From contig JANYHX010000134.1 of assembly GCA_025362155.1 (NCBI GenBank), positions 1-14,949 on the forward strand: a stretch of 14,949 nt of DNA, in the 5' to 3' direction. Both the position numbers and the translations under genes were made by a program. The DNA comes from Gallionella sp. GTDB taxonomy: Bacteria; Pseudomonadota; Gammaproteobacteria; Burkholderiales; Gallionellaceae. Shown in pieces: positions 3,704 to 4,738 of the stretch (position 1 is the first letter of the stretch; every line of letters begins with the position of its first letter). A model generated the notes under the pieces. It was not told the DNA's origin. It was given only the letters and a program-made list of their open reading frames with translations, and ran no database searches.

Positions 3704-4738
3704 TTATCTCCGTGTTTGTGTTTCGAATATTTTTCGTACTTCAAGCAAATCCTGTTCAGTATCTACTCCGCTTGGTGGAGCCTGTTCAGTGATCACCACC
3801 CCAATTTTGTAGCCATGATACAGCGCGCGTAATTGTTCCAGTGCTTCAAAATGTTCAATCGCTGCAGGGGCAAGCTGGCTGTAGGCACGTAAAAAACTGG
3901 CGCGATATGCGTAGATGCCAATGTGGCGCAATACAGGAAAATCTTTCGGCAGCACTCCCCAGAAGGGAGAGTTTCCCCCTTCCAACACCCCCTTGCTCTG
4001 CTTTCCCCCTCGGGAGGGGGAAAGAGCGCTTGCCCCCTCTCCCTCTGGGGGAGGGTTGGGGAGGGGGATGGAGGGCGAAGATAAAACCCTTTCCTCCCTT
4101 CCACCTTTCTCCCGGAGGGGGAAAGAGCAATCGTCTCGTCTCGGGGACGAGGCTAAACCCTCCCCCCTTCCACCTTCCCCCCGGAGGGAGGAAGGACAAT
4201 CGTCTCTCCCTTCGGGCGAGGCTAAACCCTTAAACGCATCGCGTGGATAAGGAATCGGTGCGCGGCTGAAATATAACGCATTGCCATTCTTATCCAACAC
4301 TGTCTTGACGATATTCGGATTGCGCAAAGCTGCTTCATCGTGAATGGCGTGACAGGCAGTGGCAATCGCACATTCAGGGTGCGCATACAGATGTTCGGCT
4401 ACAGCGTGTATCAGTTCGGGCGGAATCAGCGGTTCGTCGCCCTGCACATTGACCACGATAGTGTCATCCGTCCAGCCCTGCTGTTCAACAACCTCGGCGA
4501 TGCGATCTGTCCCGCTGGTATGACTGCCTTTCGTCAAACATGCTTTAAAGCCATGCTCGTGTACCACCTCGGCAATCGCGCGGTGATCTGTTGCTATCCA
4601 AATTTGTTGCGCGCCGCTCTGGGCCGCTTGTTCGGCCACCCTTACCACCATGGGTTTCCCTGCAATCAGTAGCAGCGGCTTACCGGGCAAGCGTGTGGAT
4701 GCGTGGCGTGCCGGAATGACAACATGAAAATCGGTCAT
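3704..4738 (-). CDS. kdsB: 3-deoxy-manno-octulosonate cytidylyltransferase with a large in-frame repeat insertion
   Basis: KdsB activates KDO as CMP-KDO (CTP + KDO) for the inner core of lipopolysaccharide. Family motifs are intact: [17 protein letters not shown] (6-22), ATDH (49-52), SGTDRIAEV (75-83), NVQGDEP (97-103), [12 protein letters not shown] (156-167), HIGIYAYR (272-279), LEQLRAL (300-306) and GVDTEQDL (324-331). The usual length is about 250 residues; this one is 344. The excess is residues ~171-264, between RDAFK and the native-looking [10 protein letters not shown], and is encoded by low-complexity palindromic repeats. The insert keeps frame and has no stop, so the protein may still be made and active with a disordered loop; that is inference. 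The region just upstream of the ATG belongs to a 185-bp repeat element whose end offers AGAGG, 7 nt before the start, as ribosome-binding site. Confidence 0.95.
3947..4228. repeat. Palindromic-repeat insertion inside kdsB (~282 bp)
   Basis: This C/T-rich stretch accounts for the ~94 extra codons of kdsB. From low to high coordinates it holds a perfect palindrome at 4001-4024 (11-bp arms CTTTCCCCCTC), an imperfect palindrome of the CCCTCT...GGGTTGGGG type at 4033-4067, and two tandem ~70-bp units at 4084-4154 and 4155-4223, each starting AAACCCT and ending GAGGCT. Boundaries are approximate, set from where KdsB family similarity stops and resumes. The length is close to a multiple of three and all minus-frame codons are sense. 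The composition differs sharply from the flanking gene. It resembles the intragenic REP-like repeats known to be scattered in many proteobacterial genomes. Confidence 0.85.
4084..4223. repeat. Two tandem ~70-bp direct repeats inside the kdsB insertion
   Basis: Unit 1 (4084-4154, 71 bp) and unit 2 (4155-4223, 69 bp) share AAACCCT, CCTTCCACCTT, CGGAGGG, CAATCGTCTC and CGAGGCT in the same order; a third AAACCCT follows at 4224-4230. On the minus strand they encode [20 protein letters not shown] and [20 protein letters not shown]. Each unit contains inner palindromes, for example CTCCCGGAGG-like centres. The different spacing suggests duplication followed by divergence. Confidence 0.8.

Follow-up and report, generated by a model that had tools for sequence, protein, structure and literature searches.

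Inteins and homing endonuclease genes carry a nuclease domain in frame inside essential genes and form gene-specific lineages. The BoxC/PIT/TM_ECO repeats follow the triplex motif pattern CCCTCNCCCN3-6GGGNGAGGGN3GGGNGAGGG, and E. coli holds 23 TM_ECO copies, all intergenic, for which the authors, in the sections of the article available, found no link to mobile elements (Holder et al. 2015, PMC4666352). GTAG and CGTC REPs occur in frame within many genes, often as dimers, in clusters that encode 43 to 82 aa; as far as the accessible text of that report goes, GTAG REPs accompany RAYT genes, and no enzyme is known for the CGTC type (Di Nocera et al. 2013, PMC3733652). A nuclease family of relevance here is represented by VsrA of Caulobacter, a Vsr-like PD-(D/E)XK nuclease with a DUF559 domain and a proposed mismatch-repair enzyme; according to the available part of the same work, a Caulobacter DUF559 protein is needed for an SOS response in a methylase mutant, and the term 'palindrom' has no occurrence in the paper's text (PMC12907096).

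The palindromes found in Gallionellaceae resemble BoxC/PIT/TM_ECO in that the stem fits and that many copies exist, as single units and as inverted pairs, but unlike the E. coli copies, as the available text describes them, many are placed in frame within genes (22 of the 37 clusters of the genome studied) and they flank DUF559 genes (PMC4666352). As judged from sequence, the in-frame versus intergenic placement is a difference in behaviour within the same sequence family. Like the GTAG/CGTC REPs, they are short palindromic sequences that lie within numerous genes and are read there in frame; unlike the GTAG REPs they have no RAYT link and a strong DUF559 link, and recurrent insertion at one site across species, seen here, was not encountered for GTAG/CGTC REPs in the accessible part of that report (PMC3733652). 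The same text mentions Rickettsia palindromic elements (RPE), which are alike, by description alone, in that they too are palindromes inserted in frame where a known protein is encoded. VsrA and the nuclease of the cassettes described below are both Vsr-like DUF559 proteins, VsrA differing in its proposed mismatch-repair role (PMC12907096, available sections). Among the articles listed from the open-access literature we found no related report of a DUF559-palindrome link or of DUF559 inserted in a synthetase, which leaves the absence of such reports unproven.

The window, that is the whole stretch of 14,949 nt analysed, is one contig (C302) of a 2.2-Mb Gallionella MAG in 330 contigs (87.84% complete, 4.27% estimated contamination). 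The features relevant to the analysis are the following.

3704..4738, minus strand: kdsB with an enlarged loop, 344 aa (open reading frame, family models, solved-structure alignment)
3932..4237, minus strand: KdsB loop from PRD to LRHIGIY, 102 codons, against about 14 in insert-free relatives
~3953..4231, minus strand: putative insert of 93 codons, flanked by AF and LPKDFPV as presumed native sequence (native-loop comparison)
4001..4024, minus strand: further palindrome CTTTCCCCCTCCCGAGGGGGAAAG (sequence reading; present in the folded structure)
4027..4068, minus strand: BoxC/triplex-type palindrome with G-rich tail, stem 4035-4055 (repeat and pattern match)
4092..4160, minus strand: second, tandem 69-nt unit, 80% identical to the first (repeat comparison)
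4161..4229, minus strand: first 69-nt hairpin-pair unit (repeat comparison; similar units elsewhere in the genome)
5107..6183, minus strand: lpxK with its own in-frame palindrome insert (PF02606, residues 15-354, in one stretch)
5520..5561, minus strand: palindrome copy inside lpxK, stem 5528-5548 (repeat and pattern match)

The frame of kdsB, a gene required for construction of the outer membrane, is stop-free along all 344 aa. Its product belongs to the KdsB (CMP-KDO synthetase) family, as the NCBIfam profile TIGR00466 scores 283.1 bits in two stretches (cut-off 155.2) and the conserved motifs are kept, with many invariant positions among 36 aligned sequences (e.g. G100-D101-E102-P103, R271-H272 and G324-V325-D326-T327). 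The three best solved KdsB chains cover residues 3/4/5-170 and 269-335/336 and leave the part in between unaligned. Insert-free KdsB loops comprise 14 (12-16) aa, as exemplified by AFAHQAELPAELPV (L021), and the loop in the window has a net gain of 88 codons over them. Should AF and LPKDFPV belong to the native loop, the stretch replaced would be ~3953-4231 (93 codons), and the original prediction of an in-frame palindromic insertion at 3947-4228 (~94 codons) was thus nearly right in its edges; as to the insertion as such it was borne out by KdsB homology on both sides, by the open frame and by relatives with an empty loop, and alignment with these relatives finds the loop native in some and enlarged in others. 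That repeats have been inserted in kdsB is virtually certain. The placement of the insert in a loop also agrees with an AlphaFold2 model (36 aligned sequences; mean pLDDT 74.8), in which residues 171-229 and 231-260 fall below 50, the loop edges reach 58 and 68 and the core, in blocks of ten, 75-97. The insert is hence predicted to form a disordered extension beside an intact core. Removal of the insert by protein splicing was considered and rejected, as Pfam and NCBIfam list no splicing domain in this KdsB.

A functional second kdsB copy had been proposed as one way in which the insert could be tolerated. The sole other kdsB found in the MAG (G000:C24:3921-4673; L082, L083) has a native loop and lies on a contig of 4782 bp, where it adjoins its own adk and glcG-like genes, as the window copy does. 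These neighbours, together with the contamination estimated for the MAG, indicate that C24 is probably the contig of another strain and the second kdsB a contaminant; the proposal finds no support. Between the window kdsB and the next small upstream gene lies an inverted repeat of 24 nt (79% complementary, 137 nt apart, 4742-4926). The KdsB proteins P0001, P0033, P0076 and L035 have N-terminal extensions which resemble translated palindromes (e.g. PPNLPLSGEE), and the start region of kdsB may also be a palindrome target.

As for the make-up of the insert, the 69-nt unit can be read as a hairpin pair with a GACGATTG-type linker and outward tails, and the same kind of pair is found elsewhere in the genome (e.g. 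C175:3988-4066). The palindrome at 4027-4068 is 86% alike to that in lpxK, and its stem, CCCTCTCCCTCTGGGGGAGGG, matches the BoxC/PIT/TM_ECO stem pattern CCCTCNCCC-loop-GGGNGAGGG. The unit also has a tail, TTGGGGAGGGGGA, and the third strand of BoxC is a G-rich GGGNGAGGG beside the hairpin. The insert strand folds better than shuffled versions of itself (z = -2.47), 2 of 200 shuffles being as good. By these sequence matches, the kdsB insert is built of copies of an interspersed palindrome which fits the BoxC/PIT/triplex stem pattern.

With up to 3 mismatches, the core palindrome has 50 matches in the same genome (27 forward, 23 reverse), and the exact stem pattern has 31, the reversed-pattern controls giving none in either search. 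The 50 matches merge into 37 clusters, two of them inside the window, and in 22 of the clusters the palindrome is read in frame within a gene that, on a Pfam basis, is conserved to either side of it; for an APH-fold phosphotransferase, PheT and one of two AcrB-type transporters Pfam gave only the better of two stretches, and the second side is inferred. Apart from these, the hosts (names beyond the Pfam domain being our reading) are KdsB, LpxK, a FAD-dependent oxidoreductase, a PDDEXK-domain helicase-nuclease, a Mur-ligase-like protein, HrpA-like (two clusters), 3-hydroxyacyl-CoA dehydrogenase, RecQ, Mfd, PurL, MetG (three clusters), an M3 oligopeptidase, AceE, the other AcrB-type transporter, a class I/II aminotransferase and a DinG-like helicase. 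One of the remaining clusters (C161:2139) is in frame with conservation shown on one side, three lie at the ends of genes (FtsL, a PDDEXK protein and a barstar-like ORF) and 11 are intergenic or not assignable. Other searches gave in-frame palindromes in TruB, a class III aminotransferase, FtsQ and at another place in HrpA. Neither these copies in other genes nor the recurrent hotspot and the DUF559 flanking described below had been raised by the original prediction.

The occurrence of the insert was followed among KdsB relatives. In the best 80 of 108 loci encoding a relative, where named largely Gallionellaceae, 34 of 79 readable loops were enlarged and 45 had 16 aa or fewer, a set that is biased because two of the six search peptides were taken from the insert. 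It was joined with a search of 158 family genomes by means of an insert-free relative, which matched in 151 of them and from which 40 enlarged or split kdsB cases were fetched and added; L035, L158 (where the contig ends inside the insert), L160 and L167 are not readable through and were left out of the loop analysis. Duplicate removal left 97 distinct loop-less KdsB proteins, the window and C24 copies included, among which 44 have enlarged loops at the same codons and 53 have loops of 12-16 aa. On the tree of these 97, 28 changes are required for the native label, and starred branches force at least 15 of them; one peptide class needs at least 12 and the nested class 5 changes for 5 rows; bootstrap support in this tree is not settled, and recombination of alleles could mimic part of the forced changes. 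Close pairs with one empty and one filled loop are L128/L156, L034/L020 and L030/L004. Native-looking codons stand beside the insert in L020, L025 and L009, and in L020 the native codons GCC GCG CAG CAG CCG are kept after the insert, which makes this a clean insertion. In L175 and L173 one repeat family appears to be read in different frames. The loop is thus very probably a recurrent insertion hotspot in Gallionellaceae.

Two further types of loop sequence were observed. In L076:3001-3873 the loop holds four copies of an 11-aa unit (WFARSNTGSRD), a tandem duplication instead of a palindrome. In kdsB, metG, truB and a transporter gene the palindrome's hairpin loop itself holds a second element of ~55 nt, with peptides GITSDLA..PSRMASSSIR or ETTSHSTKP..GQVAGY, a nested insertion of another repeat (kdsB loops L149, L155, L156, L159 and L172; MetG P0185 and P0193; L085 and L113). 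A single ancestral insertion in kdsB was considered and is not favoured, given the at least 15 changes forced on the tree. Nor is there a sign of the hotspot outside Gallionellaceae: a survey took in 151 genomes, the window's own and one from each of 150 further families in the class, and 146 gave a match. Among the listed matches outside the own genome no split KdsB of the one-frame Gallionellaceae style was found, distant matches spanning at most ~39 nt beyond the aligned query and the G205 match stopping at residue 162.

Of the enlarged-loop records, 76 in number and 44 of them distinct, all are free of stops in the coding frame, a count which is conditional since only loops readable through were kept. 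One reverse frame is open in 69 records, the following forward frame in 50 and the other three frames in 18-23. On these counts, the suggestion that the repeat spreads because one reading frame is harmless is right in part.

Palindromes also accompany DUF559 genes. In the MetG of the same genome a DUF559 domain occupies residues 378-483 of the 616-aa part scanned, with a palindrome beside it, and Pfam reported no splicing domain in this part. The genome contains two DUF559 genes, both with palindromes alongside, and a DUF559 match is found in 107 of the 158 family genomes. At these two loci and the 30 best DUF559 loci, a palindrome lies within 250 bp in 31 of 32 and on both sides in 23, and at 20 further loci, hand-picked for long frames or taken from G069, within 150 bp in 19. 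Removal of one duplicate gave a non-random sample of 51 distinct loci, where 49 have a palindrome within 200 bp (up to 3 mismatches) and 44 have it on both sides; a strict inward pair is seen in 33 of these 44, and, counted separately, the frame is open through both palindromes in 33. At family loci the tail is confidently inward for 39 of the 46 palindromes upstream of the gene and for 41 of the 47 downstream of it. L248 and L325 are DUF559 genes lacking a palindrome, and the background is 20 palindromes in 509,690 bp of kdsB loci. The palindromes are highly likely to be the ends of a DUF559 cassette. By our reading, in-frame cassettes are found in metG (8 genomes), hrpA (5), trpC (1) and two methylase-like genes. 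The metG copies of DUF559 form one clade (100/95), and the first-site hrpA copies group together (100/89) with the second-site hrpA copy inside. This latter copy, L314, stands at a different hrpA position and falls within the first-site clade (L313, L316, L317, L319), a hint of movement within hrpA. Like inteins and homing genes, the cassette nuclease is found in frame in essential genes and in gene-specific lineages; it differs from inteins in that the scanned metG has no splicing domain, that the nuclease is bounded by palindromes and that the palindromes also occur without it.

Among 120 MetG relatives listed, 75 could be parsed by expressions and 45 could not. The linker holds a cassette in 7 of the 75, a palindrome-type peptide only in 25 (e.g. 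P0214, P0231 and P0131), some of which sit elsewhere in the linker, and neither in 43, of which 26 have exactly 48 residues; within these 43, P0212 is misparsed and a small number, such as P0145, contain repeat-like peptides of other kinds. Several MetG proteins have another palindrome site in common, in the catalytic part after MGSFK.LC or MGSFQALC (L309, L311, L318). No DUF559 domain was found in any of the 120 KdsB relatives listed, and the kdsB of the window contains palindromes only, without the DUF559 domain and inward pair that define the cassette, and can accordingly be at most a cassette derivative.

Outside the family, DUF559 was matched in 145 of 398 Pseudomonadota genomes. At the best 30 of these loci (16 families by label, 29 loci outside Gallionellaceae), a strong hairpin, defined as above the 95th percentile of 238 control windows from the same loci, occurs within 130 bp in 27 and on both sides in 11. 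The palindrome pattern itself lies within 200 bp of 25 of the 29 outside-family loci, on both sides in 13; of the confident tails, 6 of the 8 upstream ones and 16 of the 17 downstream ones point inward. Across the 158 family genomes, kinship being ignored, palindrome count follows DUF559 count (rho 0.68, p 1e-22) and to a lesser degree Y1_Tnp count (rho 0.22, p 0.006). The median number of palindromes is 33 in the 107 genomes with DUF559 and 3 in the 51 without, as compared with 24.5 and 10.5 for presence and absence of Y1_Tnp. The median is 37 palindromes in the 43 genomes whose KdsB loop is enlarged and 11.5 in the 102 that are native by match span, with 13 genomes unclassed, and the former also have more DUF559 and slightly more Y1_Tnp; over 50 palindromes are present in 18 family genomes classed native at kdsB.

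On the reading preferred here, BoxC/triplex-type palindromes were inserted in frame, and partly duplicated, in a variable loop of KdsB, where different palindromes arrived or left repeatedly at the same codons, and the array would be translated as a disordered extension of an intact and presumably active core. The cassette consists of a palindrome, a DUF559 nuclease and a second palindrome, with G-rich tails facing the gene and often one frame open throughout. The Vsr-like nuclease, or its past activity, would spread both cassettes and solo palindromes, possibly by a nick or cut at or near palindromes followed by repair from a palindrome-bearing copy, and the kdsB array would be a palindrome-only, non-autonomous derivative. 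Taken as a whole, from the in-frame array and the KdsB hotspot to the cassette ends, the nuclease-driven spread and the non-autonomous form in kdsB, this explanation is a probable one. The insertions and the association and architecture of DUF559 and palindromes can be read off the genomes, and from these we infer the direction of cause, a driving role of DUF559 in palindrome spread being only somewhat favoured. Counting against a simple model of this kind are the tails of the 69-nt units in kdsB, which point outward while those of the cassettes point inward, and the persistence of palindromes in genomes with no DUF559 match (39 in G079, 36 in G101, 34 in G056, 31 in G073 and 30 in G039); the separate metG and hrpA clades also fit vertical descent with loss.

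Other explanations fare less well. An assembly error, or a pseudogene beside another working kdsB, might be suspected in a contaminated MAG of 330 contigs with a second kdsB on C24, but is scarcely credible: similar composite KdsB inserts on other contigs (P0001, 354 aa, 82% identity; P0002, 306 aa, 78%) speak against an assembly artefact, the frame is open with its motifs kept, and C24 carries its own adk and glcG-like gene. That selection in the lineage has maintained the enlarged loop as an ancient, functional piece of KdsB might be read from a 33-aa SPEGRDDC form of similar sequence in 11 distinct tree rows; it is highly improbable, and finds no support in the KdsB tree, as 53 of the 97 distinct proteins have no enlargement, close sister pairs differ, the inserts are genome-wide repeats and the loop is predicted to be disordered. 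Movement of the palindromes as REPs by RAYT (Y1) transposases is very unlikely as well, although GTAG REPs are RAYT-associated in the accessible text of PMC3733652, RAYT-type genes occur in the window's own genome and palindrome counts correlate with Y1_Tnp within two genera (76 and 34 genomes; rho 0.49 and 0.62, against 0.67 and 0.75 for DUF559, kinship ignored). No palindrome lies within 250 bp of 31 PF01797 loci (the 30 best and the own one; two loci have one at 311 and 384 bp), a set that is probably mostly IS200-type and so a poor RAYT control, nor within 250 bp of 20 RAYT-sized loci or anywhere in the ~2-3.3 kb stretches read around them. RAYT as driver was rejected on these two sets; 31 of 32 DUF559 loci versus 0 of 51 Y1-transposase loci gives a Fisher p of 5e-22, and G069 holds 211 palindromes and 14 DUF559 genes with no Y1_Tnp match.

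A more serious alternative, though still a doubtful one, reverses the roles: the palindromes would be the target, spreading by themselves or otherwise (slippage, triplex-induced breaks, gene conversion), with DUF559 genes as homing-type nucleases settling between them and the kdsB array unrelated to DUF559. The tandem duplication inside kdsB fits slippage, the nuclease lineages of metG and hrpA are gene-specific, palindromes persist where DUF559 has no match, and the available text of PMC4666352 connects triplex motifs of E. coli to instability, E. coli having no PF04480 match (2 of 14 control genomes were matched, E. coli not among them). Slippage, however, leaves clean insertions at new sites such as L020 unexplained, and the strict inward pairs (33 of 44) and the copy-number link fit better with ends of one unit, as the nuclease-driven reading has it.

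A stronger form of the preferred reading, which we hold to be evenly balanced between true and false, is that BoxC/triplex palindromes, which are widespread among bacteria and for which the available papers name no mobility gene, are the ends and the non-autonomous offspring of a new mobile element, the sole protein of which is a small Vsr-like DUF559 nuclease. Being stop-free from end to end, such an element could sit in frame and unspliced in essential genes and be produced within the protein that hosts it, KdsB of Gallionellaceae being a repeated target of the palindrome-only form. For annotation, a warning follows, as translated repeats can be the source of peptides like PLPEGEG, LTPALSRGERE and LPSPAGGRGAGGEG when these turn up in bacterial proteins. 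The findings also make testable what moves palindromic repeats that lack a transposase. If the reading is true, a long-known orphan repeat would gain a candidate mobility enzyme, the entry of this repeat family into genes without killing them would be explained, and new peptide loops, even a nuclease domain, could enter essential proteins in frame.
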